A DNA stretch of 64,000 nt from Candidatus Sulfopaludibacter sp. SbA3 (GCA_945893365.1 CAMDED010000015.1:1-64000), one strand, 5' to 3'. Counted from the first letter of the stretch, positions 56,998 to 64,000 are shown. Numbers and translations: made by a program. Notes: a model not told the origin generated them from the letters alone.

Positions 56998-57504
56998 CAA
57001 TATAGATCTTAGCTGAAGAGCGGGCGCTTCGCGCCGGCCCTGTTCGAGCTTTAAGCAAGAAAGACGAAGCTCTCGTGGCGCGTTGAGGGCCGCCGGGCCG
57101 CGGGTAGCGGCGAGTAATGTTCCCGAACTCACGCCGCGCAAGGCTTGCCCCTGTATTCCTTGGGTCACCAGGTCCGCGCTCCCGACGGCGCGCATAACCG
57201 GCAGCGGCAAGGGCAACTTTTCGGCCGGCCACGGCGACGACCGCCGGCGACGGCGCGGTTGCGCGTTCCCGCGTCGGCGGGCCCGGGATCGCCTCGGTGC
57301 CCAAGTCCAGTACGCCCGGTGAGGTTACGGCTGTCATCGAAACGGAGCCGGCGCAAAACAGGGGGCTTGCTAACCGGCGCGGTAACGGCTGGGGATATAG
57401 CCCTGCCTAATGCTTTCCGGGGGGCTGGCCGATAAAACCTTCAGGAGCAGTCCCCCCGGCCGAACCGGGGCCGCAGTCCAAAGACGAAAGGTGATTGAAA
57501 CCGT
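56998..57504 (+). other. 507-base gap holding the tolC leader
   Basis: No gene is supported. The region separates the divergent FAH and TolC-type genes, so both promoters should lie here; none is clear. The last 90 bases hold competing GC-rich hairpins, annotated separately. An AAGGTGA about ten bases before the ATG at 57505 is the likely ribosome binding site. Confidence 0.5.
57417..57470 (+). promoter_or_regulatory. Two mutually exclusive hairpins in the tolC leader
   Basis: CCGGGGGGCTG (57417-57427) can pair with CAG and CCCCCCGG (57448-57459, one bulged T). CCCCGG (57454-57459) can instead pair with CCGGGG (57465-57470) across a five-base loop. The shared strand means only one helix can form at a time. 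The site ends about 35 bases before the start codon, where a switch could affect expression. This may be a terminator/attenuator or a regulatory leader of unknown type. Confidence 0.45.
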
Positions 57505-59049
57505 ATGACTTCCGCCTCAGCTCGCCATTTTCTTGCAGCCCTAAGCGCCGTCGTAGCGCTGTGTCCTTCCGTAGCAGCCCAGACGGCGCCGCCCCCCGCC
57601 GCCACCGCCCCCCAAGTCCTTTCCGTGAACGATTGCCTGCGCATCGCAATGGAGAAGAACCGCCGCCGGCCGGCGTCCCAGTTTGCCGTGGCGATGGCCG
57701 AAGCTCAACACCGTCAAGCCATGGCCGGCTACTGGCCGCAGGTAACCGGAAAGGCCGGATGGCTTCGCCTTGACGAGGCGCCCAACTTCATTTTCCCGTC
57801 GGGAACGCTGTATATACCGCCTCAGACGATCAATGTCCCCGGCGGCGCGGCTGCGGTTAACCTTCCCGCCAACGCTTTCGGACCGGGTTTCCCCCCGGTG
57901 CCCGTCCAGGTGCCGGTCAGCTTTCCGGGACAAAGCGTGACCACGGCGGCGCAGGTGTTCCCCATCCCGGAGCAGAACATCAAGCTTCTCAATCGACAGA
58001 CCTTCATGACAGCCGGGAATCTGACTTGGTTACTGTATGACGGCGGCATGCGGAAAGGCTACCGGGAGCAGGCTCTCGGCGCCGTCGCGGCCGCGCAGGC
58101 CGAGGTGCGGCGGACGGATCTTGAGCTTACCGATGGCGTCGTAAGGCTCTACTACGGGGCCGTTTTGGCGCGGCAGTTGCACGTCGTTGGCAAAGACACC
58201 CTGGCGCGCATGGAAGTGACGCTTGAACTGACGGAATCGCTCTACAAGAACGGGGCCGGCAAGGTAAACAAGACGGACTACCTGGATAATCTGGTGATGG
58301 TCGAGACGATTCGGTCTACCGTCGCGGAACTCGCCAAGAACGAGGCCATGACCGAAGCCGCCTTGGCCTACACTCTCGGCCTGCCGTGGAACGCCACGGT
58401 TCGCCCATCCGAGGAAGATGTGCCGCATCGGCCTTTCGCAGGCAATCTGGACGAACTGGTGAGCACGGCTTACGAATTCAACCCCGATTGGGCGAGACTC
58501 GAAGCCGGTCTCAAGGCGTATAACGGCGCCGTTTCAACGGCGCGCAGCGGCTACTACCCAAAGGTGGCCTTGACGGGCGAGCTGCACCGTTGGTGGAACG
58601 ACAATACGGCAGGGCTGTCCACGGCGGCCAACAAGGTGGGCTGGTCCTTCGGAGTGGGCGCGGAGATCCCGATCTTCGACGGATTCCTGACCCGGAATAG
58701 AGTAGCCGAAGCCCTCGCCCGCGTGGCCAAGCTCAAAGAGGAAAAGTTCCTTCTGCGCGAGGGTATCGGACTCCAACTCCGCGAATTGTTTCTGCGTCTC
58801 GACGCCGCATCGAAAACCTATCAGGCGGCAAACCGAGCGATGGTGGCCGCGCGCGAAAACCGCGACTTGACGTCGCGAGCCTATCAGAACGAGCTGGTTG
58901 AGACGGAAAAAGTAATCCGGGCTCAATTGTTTGAAGCCCTTATGACAGCCCAGTTCCTCAAGACGCGGTACGACCACGTGGCGATCGAGTCTCAGATCTC
59001 ATTGGTGGTTGGGAGGGAGATAGCCGGGAGGATGAACTCGAAACCGTAG
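57505..59049 (+). CDS. TolC-family outer-membrane protein
   Basis: The 514-residue protein has a signal peptide (FLAALSAVVALCPSVAAQT). Two outer-membrane-efflux repeats of long amphipathic helices follow: about residues 45-270 (SVNDCLRIAMEKNRRR, then QFAVAMAEAQHRQAMAGYWP) and about 310-500 (ARLEAGLKAYNGAVSTARSG, SFGVGAEIPIFDGF). TolC proteins form trimeric exit ducts for efflux or secretion. A 60-residue Pro- and Gly-rich insertion sits at about residues 100-160. No inner-membrane pump or adaptor gene is in the window. It is 21 bases ahead of four binding-protein genes on the same strand. Confidence 0.92.
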   Translation: MTSASARHFLAALSAVVALCPSVAAQTAPPPAATAPQVLSVNDCLRIAMEKNRRRPASQFAVAMAEAQHRQAMAGYWPQVTGKAGWLRLDEAPNFIFPSGTLYIPPQTINVPGGAAAVNLPANAFGPGFPPVPVQVPVSFPGQSVTTAAQVFPIPEQNIKLLNRQTFMTAGNLTWLLYDGGMRKGYREQALGAVAAAQAEVRRTDLELTDGVVRLYYGAVLARQLHVVGKDTLARMEVTLELTESLYKNGAGKVNKTDYLDNLVMVETIRSTVAELAKNEAMTEAALAYTLGLPWNATVRPSEEDVPHRPFAGNLDELVSTAYEFNPDWARLEAGLKAYNGAVSTARSGYYPKVALTGELHRWWNDNTAGLSTAANKVGWSFGVGAEIPIFDGFLTRNRVAEALARVAKLKEEKFLLREGIGLQLRELFLRLDAASKTYQAANRAMVAARENRDLTSRAYQNELVETEKVIRAQLFEALMTAQFLKTRYDHVAIESQISLVVGREIAGRMNSKP

Positions 59050-59070
59050 TTCGAAGTTGGCGAACACCCA

Positions 59071-60024
59071 ATGCAGAAGATCAGGCTGGAGGGCGAAACC
59101 CGCGGGGACACAAGTTCGCGGCGGCGCGCCCTTGCCCTGATGCTTGGGGCCGGGGGCTGGTTGCCCGGAGCGCTGGCCGCCGCCGACCGCGCCGCGCTGC
59201 TGCGCCTGGCCATTTCAGAGAGTCTGATTTCGGACGTGAATCTCAACGACGCGAGAGCGGCCATGACGATCTGGATCAAACGAATGATGGTGGACTTGAA
59301 CATGGTAATCGATGTCAGCCCAGCGGTATTCGATACGACCGAGGAGATTCTGCACCGGGCCCGTACCGGCCGGTTTGACGTGGTCGCGCTGAATGTCGTC
59401 GAGTACCGGCAGGTCGCCAGTCTGCTCGATCCCAGCGAGATTGTGTCCGAGGAGGGTGCGGCGGGAATGGATCGATATGTCCTGCTGGTGAAGCGAGGCG
59501 GCGGGATCGAGCGCGTCGGCGACCTGCGGGGACGAAAGCTGATCGTACTGAAGGGCCCGAAGATGTGCGTCGCGGATGCCTGGCTCTCCACTATCCTCGA
59601 CGAGGGGCATTTCGGCGGAAGCGAACAGTTCTTCGGTACGGTGACCACCCAAACCAAAGCCTCGCGAGTCGTGCTGCCGGTCTTTTTTGGTCAGGCCGAT
59701 GCGTGCCTTACCTCGAAACGGGGCTTCGACATGATGTCCGAGTTGAATCCGCAGGTTGCAAGAAATCTGACCGCGATCGCCAGTTCTTCCCCGATGGTGC
59801 TGTGCTTCTACGTATTCCGCAAGAACTATCGCGGTTTGAGCCGGGAGAGTTTCGCCAAGGTCACGTCGGATCTGCGCACCAGCGCGGCCGGCCGGCAGCT
59901 CGCGACGCTCTTTCAATTCGATGGGTTGACGGTCCGGGATGCCGGTTGTCTGGCGCCCGCTCTCGCCGTACTCGAGATGGCGGAGCGCGTCCGGGGCAAG
60001 AGTGCCGGGAGCCCAACCGGATGA
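59071..60024 (+). CDS. PhnD-like periplasmic binding protein, copy 1
   Basis: The 317-residue protein has an arginine-rich, Tat-like signal (TSSRRRALALMLGAGGWLPG). The binding-protein fold of the PhnD/phosphonate type follows, with blocks shared by all four copies: SDVNLNDARAAMTIW near residue 52, KLIVLKGPKMCVADAWLSTI, SEQFFGTV, VLPVFFGQADACLTSKRGF and ELNPQVAR. Such proteins bind small anionic or organic ligands in the periplasm. There is no permease or ATPase gene beside it. It overlaps copy 2 by ATGA and is the closest relative of copy 2. Confidence 0.88.
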   Translation: MQKIRLEGETRGDTSSRRRALALMLGAGGWLPGALAAADRAALLRLAISESLISDVNLNDARAAMTIWIKRMMVDLNMVIDVSPAVFDTTEEILHRARTGRFDVVALNVVEYRQVASLLDPSEIVSEEGAAGMDRYVLLVKRGGGIERVGDLRGRKLIVLKGPKMCVADAWLSTILDEGHFGGSEQFFGTVTTQTKASRVVLPVFFGQADACLTSKRGFDMMSELNPQVARNLTAIASSSPMVLCFYVFRKNYRGLSRESFAKVTSDLRTSAAGRQLATLFQFDGLTVRDAGCLAPALAVLEMAERVRGKSAGSPTG

Positions 60025-60980
60025 CGAAGCCCACCACAGCTACTGAAACCCGCGGCGCCGCCTCGCGGCGCCAAGCCTTCGGCTTGATGCTTGGGGCCGG
60101 GGGCTGGTTGCCCCAGGCGCTGGCTGCGGCGGACGGTGGCGCGCCGGTCCGCCTGGCTCTCTCGGAGAGCATGCTGGGGGGCGTGAATCCGAATGACGCC
60201 CGCGCGGCCATGACGGTCTGGACCAAGCGAATGTTCGAAGACATGAACATCGTGCTGGACCCGAAGCTATTCAGCACCAGACAGGAGATCCACGACCGCG
60301 CCCGCAGGGGCCAGTTGGATGCCATGGTGCTGAATGCCGTCGAGTACCGGCCGATCGCCGATCTGTTGGACGCGAGCCAACTCGTAGCCCCGGGTGGCGC
60401 GGCGGGCATGGAGCAGTATCTTATCCTGGCGAAGCGGAATGGCGGCATCCGGCAGTTGAGCGACCTGAAGGGACGCCGGCTGAACATGCTGAAGGCTCCT
60501 AAAATGTGCGTCGCGGACGCCTGGCTCTCCACCCTCCTCGAGGAAAGGCATTACGGCCCGGCCGAACAGTTTTTTGGTTCGGTGGTCACGGACGCCAAGT
60601 TCTCCCGAGTCGTATTACCGGTCTTTTTCGGCCAGGCGGATGCCTGCCTCACCACGAAGCGGGGCTTCGACACGATGTGCGAGCTGAATCCGCAAGTGGC
60701 GCGAGACTTGATAGCGATCGCAAGCAGTCCCGCCATGGTCCTGGTTTTTTGCATCTTCCGCAAGAACTACATAAGCGTGAATCGAGAGAAGCTGATCAAG
60801 GCGTTGATCAAGTCCGTCTCTACACTGCTGACGACCGAGGCCGGCCGTCAACTCGCGACGCTTTTTCAATTCGATGAGCTGGCGATACGGGATGCCGGCT
60901 GTCTGGCAAGCGTTCTCGGCGTGCTTGATGCGGCGGACCGCGCCAACGGCAAGCCGGTCGCAGGGAGCCAAAAAGGATAG
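60021..60980 (+). CDS. PhnD-like periplasmic binding protein, copy 2
   Basis: I chose the ATG at 60021 that overlaps the stop of copy 1, giving 319 residues; the frame is open upstream but without signals. It has a twin-arginine-type signal (GAASRRQAFGLMLGAGGWLP) nearly the same as copy 1. It shares GGVNPNDARAAMTVW, APKMCVADAWLSTLLE, AEQFFGSV, VLPVFFGQADACLTTKRGFD and ELNPQVAR. The ligand pocket differs from copy 1 in the DPKLFSTRQEIHDRARRG region, so the ligand may differ. It lies three bases before copy 3. Confidence 0.88.
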   Translation: MTKPTTATETRGAASRRQAFGLMLGAGGWLPQALAAADGGAPVRLALSESMLGGVNPNDARAAMTVWTKRMFEDMNIVLDPKLFSTRQEIHDRARRGQLDAMVLNAVEYRPIADLLDASQLVAPGGAAGMEQYLILAKRNGGIRQLSDLKGRRLNMLKAPKMCVADAWLSTLLEERHYGPAEQFFGSVVTDAKFSRVVLPVFFGQADACLTTKRGFDTMCELNPQVARDLIAIASSPAMVLVFCIFRKNYISVNREKLIKALIKSVSTLLTTEAGRQLATLFQFDELAIRDAGCLASVLGVLDAADRANGKPVAGSQKG

Positions 60981-60983
60981 AGA

Positions 60984-61958
60984 ATGAAGCTGCTCCGTCC
61001 ATTGCCGCTCTTGCTCTTCTGGCTCAGCCAAGCCGTTAACGGCGCACTGTTGGCGGTCGACCCGCCGTCTCCCGGATTGAAGAGAGCGCGCCTTCACGTA
61101 ATGGCGAGCGAATCCATGTTTGCGACGGTCAATCGAGCCGATGCGACTGCTTCAATGACTATTTGGACTCGGCAAATTGCGGGAATCTACGGCTTTGAGC
61201 TCGACACCAGGATGGAGATCGCACGGTCGATCGAAGAGATCCGGCAGCGCCTCAAAGCGCACACGGTGGACCTGCTAGTCCTGGATACGCCCGATTTCCT
61301 GGCGCTTGTCGACGGCAAGCTAATAGAGGCGTTGGTTGCGGGCACAAGCCGGGGCCGGTTAGGGACATTCCCGTATCTGCTGTTGACTAACGCCGCGCCG
61401 GAAGCCGGACAACTCGCGGGGTTACGCGGGAAGCGGATTGTCGTTAATTCCCGCACCAAATCGAATCTGGGCCTGGCCTGGCTGGAGACGCTTCTGGCGG
61501 AAAACCGTCTCGGCCGCGCATCCGGCTTCTTTGGCTCGCTGGAAATCGGCTATCGGGCCTCGGCGTGCGTTCTGCCTCTATTCTTCGGCAAGATCGACGC
61601 CTGTGTGGTCGATTCCGATAGCTGGGAATCGATCAAGGAGCTGAATCCCCAACTCGGCCGGCTACGGGTCGCGGCGCGCTCCGAAGCCCTGCTCGAAGGC
61701 GTGATGGCGGTGCCGGTTGCGCCGTTCCCGTACAAGAGCGTAATGATCGAATCGATCATAAACATGCACAAGACCGCAGCCGGCGAGCAGCTCGGCATCG
61801 TGTTCAGGACCGGTCCGCTGATCCGCGTCGTCAAGGAGCAGTTTGAGTCGGTGCGCGCCCTTCGCGGCAAGTACCGCCGCATCGTGGAGCCGTCCGGGGA
61901 CGGTCCGGCGCCCATCGCCGGGCGCCTCGAAGAAGTAGAAGTAAAGGAGCGCCGCTAG
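60984..61958 (+). CDS. PhnD-like periplasmic binding protein, copy 3
   Basis: The 324-residue protein has a Sec-type signal (PLPLLLFWLSQAVNGALLA), not the arginine-rich one of copies 1 and 2. It shares ATVNRADATASMTIW, KRIVVNSRTKSNLGLAWLET, ASGFFGSL, VLPLFFGKIDACVVDSDSW and ELNPQLGRL. It is clearly more diverged from copies 1 and 2 and closer to copy 4. The C-terminal 30 residues are charged (GRLEEVEVKERR) and may be a flexible tail. Copy 4 begins at the very next base after its stop. Confidence 0.87.
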   Translation: MKLLRPLPLLLFWLSQAVNGALLAVDPPSPGLKRARLHVMASESMFATVNRADATASMTIWTRQIAGIYGFELDTRMEIARSIEEIRQRLKAHTVDLLVLDTPDFLALVDGKLIEALVAGTSRGRLGTFPYLLLTNAAPEAGQLAGLRGKRIVVNSRTKSNLGLAWLETLLAENRLGRASGFFGSLEIGYRASACVLPLFFGKIDACVVDSDSWESIKELNPQLGRLRVAARSEALLEGVMAVPVAPFPYKSVMIESIINMHKTAAGEQLGIVFRTGPLIRVVKEQFESVRALRGKYRRIVEPSGDGPAPIAGRLEEVEVKERR

Positions 61959-63008
61959 ATGCTCCCACGCGGAATTTCGACAAGGTTATTGCGGCTCGTC
62001 ACGGTGGGGCGGATCGCGGCGCGCCGGTTCGCGCAATTCCTATGTCTTGCCGTTGGGATTGCCGTGGCGCAGCGAGGCGGTCCGGTTAGGACCGTTAGCG
62101 TCGAGGCCGGCGGATTGCGCAAAACACGGCTCAATGTGGTGGCAAGCAGCAAGATGATGGGCAAAGTAAATTACAACGACGCTCGCGCCGCGCTCAAGGT
62201 CTGGTTCGACAGTGTAGGGCGGCAAAGAGGCTTTCTCCTGGACTCCAGGATCGACATCCTCGAGAACGTGGCGGAGATCAGGGATCGCCTTCAGAGCCGT
62301 TCGGTGGACGTGGTCATACCGTCCATCTCCGAGTACCTGGAACTCGAAAGTAGCCGCCTGATCGTTCCCATTCTGGCGTTTGCCCTAAGCTCACACGGAG
62401 AAGCGCTGTACTCGTACGTGCTGTTGGTCAACCCTTCCTCCACCGCGAAGGAAATCGCCGGCCTGCGAGCGAAAAGCATCCTGGCTTCTTCGCGAGGTGG
62501 ATCGAACACGGGTATTGCCTGGATCGACGTCCTCCTCGGCAAAGAGAAGCTTGGGCGCGCCGAGTCCTTCTTCGCCACTATCAAGGTTCCTGAAAAGGCG
62601 CAGGCGTGCGTATTGCAAGTGTTTTTCGGCACGATCGACGCATGCGTGGTGGACGAAGTCAGTCTGAACCTGGCGAAGGAGATGAACCCTCAATTGGGAC
62701 GCCTGAAGGTTCTCGCCCGATCCCTTCCCTTGATCGAGAGCCTGATCGCCACGCCGGTGGAACCACATCCATACCAGGCGGAGCTGATTGACGGCATCCT
62801 CTCGCTCCACGAGGACCCGACTCGCCGTCAACTGCTCATGGTCGTCAAGACCGATCGAATCGTGCGAATCCAGCCGGGCGATCTCAACTCCGCGCGCGAG
62901 CTGTGGAGAGATTACTACCGTCTGCCTGGCTCGTCGCCGCACCGTCCACCAGGCTCCGGACTCACGGCGCAGGTCGGCAAGATCGACATCGGCAAGGAAA
63001 GGCCCTGA
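61959..63008 (+). CDS. PhnD-like periplasmic binding protein, copy 4
   Basis: The 349-residue protein starts directly after copy 3. Its signal is long and basic (LLRLVTVGRIAARRFAQFLC, then LAVGIAVAQ). The family blocks are present: GKVNYNDARAALKVWF, KSILASSRGGSNTGIAWID, AESFFATI, VLQVFFGTIDACVVDEVSLN and EMNPQLGRL. The tail is proline-rich (GSSPHRPPGSG) and ends GKIDIGKERP. The sensor gene begins two bases after its stop, so it is best placed to be the sensor partner. Confidence 0.87.
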   Translation: MLPRGISTRLLRLVTVGRIAARRFAQFLCLAVGIAVAQRGGPVRTVSVEAGGLRKTRLNVVASSKMMGKVNYNDARAALKVWFDSVGRQRGFLLDSRIDILENVAEIRDRLQSRSVDVVIPSISEYLELESSRLIVPILAFALSSHGEALYSYVLLVNPSSTAKEIAGLRAKSILASSRGGSNTGIAWIDVLLGKEKLGRAESFFATIKVPEKAQACVLQVFFGTIDACVVDEVSLNLAKEMNPQLGRLKVLARSLPLIESLIATPVEPHPYQAELIDGILSLHEDPTRRQLLMVVKTDRIVRIQPGDLNSARELWRDYYRLPGSSPHRPPGSGLTAQVGKIDIGKERP

Positions 63009-63010
63009 CA

Positions 63011-64000
63011 ATGCGCCTTGAACACCTCCGTCTCCCAAAAGGCATTTCCCGGCGCATCGCGCTACTCGGATGGATCGTCACCCTGGTCACCCTGGGCGTC
63101 TTTGTCACAGTCCTCGTTCCGGAACAGAAGCGCGAGTTCGAGTTGAGTCTCGAATCGAAGGCCCGCGGCGTCGCCGTTTCAATTCGCGGTGTTGCCGCGG
63201 GGGCCGCCGTCTCGGAGGACTATTCCGCGGTCGTGGATCAGGCGATGCAGGTTTTGGCCGGCGACCAGGCGATCGACTACGTGGTGATGACGAAGAACGA
63301 CGGCTTCTCGATCGTGATCGACCGCTCCGCCTGGAAGATCGAAACACTCGGTGAAACCTGGCACCCGGAATCGCGAAAACCAGCCAGTTCCATCGGCGCC
63401 TCGCCCCTGTTCGGACGACGCGTCTTCCAATACGCCTTTCCGTTCGATTACAGCGGCATCCAGTGGGGTTGGATCCACATCGGACTGTCGCTCGACGCCT
63501 ACGACGAGAGTGTGCGGCGCACTTACAAGCGCACGGGAGCGCTGACCATCCTCTGCGGCGCCCTGAGCCTGTTGATCTCGCTCGTGTATTCGGCGCGCCT
63601 GGTCCGGCCCATTCACATCCTGCATGCGGCGGTTGAGAAGGTGGCTCAGGGGGATCTCCACGCGCGCGCCGAAGTGCGCAGCCACGATGAGATCGAGCGG
63701 CTGGCGGAGGCGTTCAACGACATGGCGCGGACCATCCTCGGCCGCAACCAGATCCTCGACAGCGTCAGCTTCGCCGCGAAACAGTTCCTGAGCGACGGGG
63801 ACCGCGACACCATTACCGAAGAGGTGCTGCGAAAGGTCGGTCAGGCGGCCGGGGCCAGCCGCGCCTGTGTATTGGAAATGTGCATAAAGGAAGACTATCT
63901 TCGTCCCATCCTGCGAATGAAATGGATGCCGTCCGCCGAGCCGTCACACCGGAAAGGTTGGGAGGATTTCCCTTGGCAGGGGGGGTGCGCGGACCAGTGG
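63011..64000 (+). CDS. Two-TM sensor protein with HAMP and start of a GAF-like domain (partial)
   Basis: The frame from the ATG at 63011 is open to the window edge (330 codons). It has TM1 at about residues 15-35, a periplasmic sensor domain of about 140 residues (DYVVMTKNDGFSIVIDRSAW, VFQYAFPFDYSGIQWGWIHI), TM2 at about 176-196 and a HAMP domain at about 197-247 (LVRPIHILHAAVEKVAQGDL, HDEIERLAEAFNDMA). A GAF-like start follows (AAKQFLSDGDRDTITEEVLR). The output domain is outside the window: a histidine kinase, GGDEF or phosphatase would all fit. It is two bases after binding-protein copy 4, and so probably receives its signal from one or more of the four. Confidence 0.9.
   Translation, partial: MRLEHLRLPKGISRRIALLGWIVTLVTLGVFVTVLVPEQKREFELSLESKARGVAVSIRGVAAGAAVSEDYSAVVDQAMQVLAGDQAIDYVVMTKNDGFSIVIDRSAWKIETLGETWHPESRKPASSIGASPLFGRRVFQYAFPFDYSGIQWGWIHIGLSLDAYDESVRRTYKRTGALTILCGALSLLISLVYSARLVRPIHILHAAVEKVAQGDLHARAEVRSHDEIERLAEAFNDMARTILGRNQILDSVSFAAKQFLSDGDRDTITEEVLRKVGQAAGASRACVLEMCIKEDYLRPILRMKWMPSAEPSHRKGWEDFPWQGGCADQW

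Follow-up and report, generated by a model that had tools for sequence, protein, structure and literature searches.

Signalling from a periplasmic binding protein (PBP) to a sensor kinase has a precedent in LuxPQ, where LuxP docks on LuxQ, a separate kinase with a Cache-like periplasmic domain. In the AioXSR, ArxXSR and ArrXSR systems, a PF12974 PBP gene lies directly before the genes for a kinase and a regulator with no transporter, and AioX has been proposed to signal by acting on AioS (PMC5908839); some of these systems are described with an AtoC-type regulator. In TtrS and ThsS, a PhnD-like sensing domain is fused to the kinase (PMC5408782). A binding-protein (SBP) gene and a kinase gene that lie side by side need not work together, as the cases of AgtS and AruS illustrate (PMC11113362). 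Here we describe an operon from Candidatus Sulfopaludibacter sp. SbA3 in which PBP and kinase genes are headed by a gene for a TolC-type channel. The conserved, ordered unit consists of a TolC subfamily, one to six PhnD/ArrX/BstB-like PBPs and a Cache-HAMP kinase, with no transporter genes, and because it recurs across phyla with one to six PBPs, we read it as a dedicated sense organ and not as an importer or an efflux pump. With a probability of roughly 0.6, the operon is an envelope-spanning, PBP-dependent sensory module that is linked to motility and has a dedicated TolC as an integral part.

The stretch of DNA analysed (the window) comprises 64,000 nucleotides, bases 1-64000 of contig C15 (76,706 bp) from a genome of 7.9 Mb. 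ORF calling verified six plus-strand genes to the base: a TolC-type outer-membrane channel of 514 aa belonging to a system-specific subfamily (57505..59049), four PF12974 (PhnD-like) genes (PBP1, 59071..60024; PBP2, 60021..60980; PBP3, 60984..61958; PBP4, 61959..63008) and a sensor kinase that starts with the ATG at 63011, has its first 330 aa within the window (63011..64000) and ends at C15:65566. The intergenic gaps, in order from TolC, are 21, -4, 3, 0 and 2 bases, exactly as given by a first-pass annotation of the sequence. Pfam recognises OEP in the channel (E 1e-38), Phosphonate-bd in each of the four PBPs (E 1e-12 to 1e-15) and HAMP in the sensor, which that annotation had rightly described as a two-TM HAMP protein. 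ORFs and Pfam place no ABC permease or ATPase gene within the operon, in agreement with the same source, and neither an adaptor (HlyD) nor an inner-membrane pump linked to TolC was found there.

This layout shares with AioXSR, ArxXSR and ArrXSR the PF12974 gene directly before a kinase and a regulator and the lack of a transporter, but differs from them in having up to six PBPs, a TolC gene in first position and outputs that are hybrid or GGDEF-EAL proteins. The ORFs that flank the operon on contig C15 include no arsenic molybdoenzyme, which is an adjacent feature in the AioX, ArxX and ArrX systems. Like LuxPQ, the system pairs a separate PBP with a kinase whose periplasmic domain is Cache-like, but the PBPs are of another class, several serve one kinase and a TolC is present. 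As in TtrS and ThsS, PhnD-like sensing feeds a kinase, although here the PBPs are separate ORFs and have been multiplied.

The four PBPs are paralogues: relative to PBP1, identity is 64% for PBP2 and 30% for both PBP3 and PBP4. They are the only strong copies in the whole genome. In a tree of 119 PBP copies they form two pairs, and by inspection PBP1 and PBP2 carry arginine-rich, TAT-like SRR signals and PBP3 and PBP4 Sec-like signals; paralogy, pairing and signals had all been proposed beforehand. The same division runs through the Bryobacterales, which have a proximal clade with TAT-like signals and a distal clade with Sec-like signals, the latter including PBP3 and PBP4 and standing last in the arrays, adjoining the kinase. 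Copies 1-4 are orthologous position by position in this genome (G000), G218 and G221 and, to the extent covered by its two contigs, in G230 as well. Since the copies hold their positions between genomes, each of them is maintained.

The best solved relative of these PBPs is the sensor PBP ArrX (E 4e-15), followed by BstB (E 1e-13), a sterol-binding PBP of Methylococcus (PMC10942540). BstB and the PBPs have an N-terminal VNxxDAxxA motif and the C-terminal half in common, but no BstA or BstC was recognised here, and the score against the NCBIfam BstB equivalog is 24.7 bits versus a cut-off of 350. The AioX pocket consists of Tyr88, Cys106, Tyr131, Ser161, Ser163, His192 and Asp210 (PMC5908839). 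When six of these positions (Tyr88 excluded) were mapped through ArrX, only the Asp proved general; Cys, His and Ser-x-Ser are lost, setting the PBPs apart from the AioXSR group, and the Tyr cannot be judged securely, since the alignment slips at that point. Sensing of arsenic oxyanions in the manner of AioX was dropped as a reading because the pocket is not kept beyond the aspartate. With the oxyanion pocket lost and VNxxDAxxA common to BstB, a non-oxyanion, perhaps hydrophobic, ligand is plausible.

The sensor has the order TM, single Cache fold, TM, HAMP, GAF, PAS, HNVGN-type phosphoacceptor region (unnamed by Pfam) and HATPase. The model of its periplasmic domain is a single Cache (pLDDT 88) that matches WalK, Tlp3 and other Cache domains. 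Past position 64000, where the first-pass annotation had suggested looking for the output, the HAMP-GAF-PAS kinase is followed after one base by a gene for a hybrid REC-PAS-HisKA-HATPase-REC protein (C15:65568-67802; domain search). Across systems, mean column identity is 49% for the kinase input domain and 54% for the linked TolCs versus 31% for the PBPs, and the cytoplasmic parts vary (GAF or PAS, HNVGN or HisKA, REC, Hpt), with REC-hybrid, REC-GGDEF or REC-GGDEF-EAL proteins as partners. The envelope half is thus conserved and the output half exchanged between systems. The linked outputs comprise hybrid phosphorelays and GGDEF-EAL proteins, and no DNA-binding regulator was seen among them. 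In Geobacterales, TolC is directly preceded, in the same operon, by a gene for a small Hpt-domain protein (L164:5932-6324, L162:11108-11500, L161:5214-5645). A PADLOC search returned no meaningful match, only two weak ones to the receiver region of the regulator, and a defence role was dropped.

Relatives were sought with a PBP profile and their neighbourhoods then compared. Within the same order, 18 of 257 genomes hold PBP relatives, as do 11 of 141 Geobacterales genomes; a 396-genome sample from the phylum yielded at least two more, a lower bound since only the five best candidates per genome were scored. At low frequency they are also found in Nitrospirota and Desulfobacterota. Among the named carriers are Bryobacterales MAGs, one MAG each from Verrucomicrobia and Nitrospiraceae, and the isolate Desulfoluna limicola. 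Of the 49 loci with enough flanking sequence in either direction, 36 have the order TolC-(PBP)1-6-kinase intact. They come from Acidobacteriota, Geobacterales and other Desulfobacterota, Nitrospirota and the one Verrucomicrobia MAG, and every complete unit has a kinase adjoining the PBPs. The gene order is therefore kept in other Acidobacteria and beyond, and the linkage of PBPs and sensor is not a peculiarity of this genome. Among the 13 exceptions, L061 has a further PBP behind the kinase, L166 is cut by a contig end, and ten (L014, L059, L075, L116, L120, L158, L160, L168, L169, L171) have the full unit or its TolC elsewhere in the genome. All of these ten save L160 and L168 are extra single PBPs of the same family lying far from the operon. 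The one clear exception is L062 (L062:6929-12012), where PBP, kinase and regulator stand without an adjacent TolC and a methyltransferase gene lies upstream; TolC may therefore be dispensable there.

TolC-family channels are known as exit ducts for pumps and type I secretion; the periplasmic end of an ordinary outer-membrane factor (OMF) docks an adaptor, and OMFs are commonly shared among pumps. In the reverse direction, the same genomes were searched with a profile built from the linked TolCs, at a threshold of E 1e-50. The subfamily was found in 17 of the 257 order genomes, which are the PBP genomes minus one with a weak PBP match (G074), and in the same 11 of 141 Geobacterales genomes as the PBPs. 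There is one such TolC per genome, apparently split between contigs in two fragmented assemblies. Overlap by random draw has a probability of about 1e-26 in the order and 1e-16 in Geobacterales, both weakened by the relatedness of the genomes. Because it is confined to genomes that hold the PBPs, this subfamily is not a general efflux channel.

The AlphaFold model of the channel (pLDDT 83) has the full OMF fold, with OEP repeats and an alpha/beta-barrel. Alignment and model place its periplasmic tip turns at residues 250-255 (GAGKVN; 58252..58269, plus strand) and 462-466 (within the motif ELVETEKVIRAQL; 58888..58902, plus strand), and both helix turns coincide in the model with the motifs GxGxVxKTDYL and ELVETxxVIxAQL. 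Both tips rank with the best-conserved parts of the channel (0.76 and 0.74 vs 0.60 for TolC overall), although some tip conservation is expected of any OMF. Compared with TolC and OprM, then, the complete fold is the same, but the tips are unique: their motifs are unlike those of nine other OMFs in the same genome, and the tip of hairpin 1 has a two-residue insertion that these nine do not have. The first extracellular loop is also longer, with about 76 residues in the Bryobacterales TolC versus 12-35 in the genome's other OMFs. Since the operon encodes no adaptor, the tip probably meets a partner specific to this system.

These observations bear on a rival account, in which the operon is an AioXSR-like sensor of PBP and kinase and TolC is merely co-transcribed, serving an efflux pump encoded elsewhere, with the PBPs reporting that pump's substrate. 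The sharing of OMFs among pumps would allow this. So would L062, and a PBP with a kinase and response regulator alone is a known arrangement (PMC5908839). The account is nevertheless improbable in our judgement: the TolC is exclusive to PBP genomes, one in each, within orders belonging to two phyla, the neighbourhood shows no conserved adaptor or pump, and the tips are unlike those of ordinary OMFs. Conserved tips that need a partner also fit a second alternative, in which the PBPs are periplasmic carriers or adaptors that pass a hydrophobic lipid or terpenoid ligand to the TolC tip or take it from there, while the kinase reports the flux; the unit would then be a transport route and not primarily a sensor. 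The relationship to sterol-binding BstB speaks for such carriers, but the operon has no energised inner-membrane component and a kinase adjoins the PBPs in every complete unit, which leaves this route with a small chance of being correct.

The first-pass annotation had pictured the array as a multi-ligand front end for one sensor that perhaps controls an efflux process through TolC. Its first half is supported, given the linkage across phyla, the absence of an ABC partner, ArrX as best solved relative and the fixed copies, and neither of the two results that it had named as refuting turned up. Control of efflux is not, and we now consider it very unlikely. TolC is indeed the first gene of the operon, and directly downstream lies a convergent, minus-strand operon for an RND pump, its adaptor and a TolC (L005:12027-18039; C15:68026-74038). 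That pump, however, is on the opposite strand and has its own TolC, only 23% identical to the one studied here; no such pump was recognised in the annotated part of the relatives' flanks, and the operon has neither adaptor nor pump, nor a transcription factor among its outputs. A derivation from a PhnCDE-type uptake system, as its remnant or its regulatory part, is suggested by PF12974 membership but is scarcely credible and was dropped: in PhnCDE and PtxABC the PBP is accompanied by an adjacent ABC permease and ATPase, whereas motif searches found no ABC ATPase across 372 kb of flanks at 41 loci, and scores with the NCBIfam models TIGR01098 and TIGR03431 fall far under their cut-offs (PhnD/TIGR01098: 20.8 of 261 and 22.8 of 112 bits).

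The 5' leader offers a clue to the role of the sensory module. A predicted sigma28 (FliA-clade)-type promoter, TAAT-N16-GCCGATAA (57408..57435, plus strand), lies 69 bases before the TolC start codon and is the single match in the window in a motif search with 0.01 expected. The consensus has -35 TAAA and -10 GCCGATAA (PMC2859248, PMC8325347), so that the site here has one -35 mismatch (TAAT) and a spacer of 16 versus 15 in E. coli. Closer matches, with TAAA, N16 and a G or C opening the -10 octamer, precede TolC in G218, G221, G230 and G159, and a motif with N15 lies upstream of TolC in the Geobacterales genome G1105. A strict search of 1.52 Mb of strand-bases gave six sites, every one of them upstream of one of these operons, and a graded search gave six strong sites upstream of TolC versus one in 1.17 Mb of background, although in most members of the system the motif is missing or has diverged too far. 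Because the motif corresponds to the flagellar-clade sigma consensus, it suggests that the operon may belong to a motility-type regulon with a role in motility or lifestyle; flagellar-clade sigma factors can also drive pilus and c-di-GMP genes. A riboswitch reading of the leader was dropped in favour of the promoter motif, no known riboswitch being found there at E up to 1. Separately, a Group II intron domain (RF02001, 66.8 bits) was noted at L079:40-211, near the G218 locus.

Under the sensory-module reading, each PBP would bind its own ligand in the periplasm and, once closed, dock on the Cache domain of the kinase, as LuxP does on LuxQ and in the way proposed for AioX acting on AioS. The kinase would then signal via its hybrid or GGDEF-EAL partner, so that motility or behaviour of c-di-GMP type, and not transport, is the probable output. 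Multiplication of the PBPs would widen the range of ligands available to one kinase. We consider it likelier that TolC belongs to the sensor than that the sensor acts on it; the channel may admit or position ligand at its periplasmic tip for the PBPs, or be gated by them. This placement of TolC within the receptor is the novel step of the model and its least certain one. Its full form, in which the channel is an obligate receptor part whose tip is docked by exchangeable PBPs reporting to one kinase, making an envelope-spanning modular chemoreceptor, we hold tentatively, at somewhat short of an even chance.

PBP-kinase systems are already known, but the TolC component and the multi-PBP, fixed-order arrays appear to be new: among open-licence papers we found no description of TolC together with PhnD-like PBPs and a kinase, and no account of a PBP-kinase system whose PBPs, up to six of them, are arrayed in fixed order. 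If the model is correct, a TolC subfamily tied to sensor PBPs and a kinase, with tips of its own and no pump, would extend the TolC family to a sensory role, and one kinase served by one to six PBPs in fixed order would be a natural modular array. Desulfoluna limicola, an isolate with a complete genome, carries the one-PBP version (L063) and represents the minimal case. Should TolC prove to be part of the receptor, the architecture would possibly be a categorically new one.
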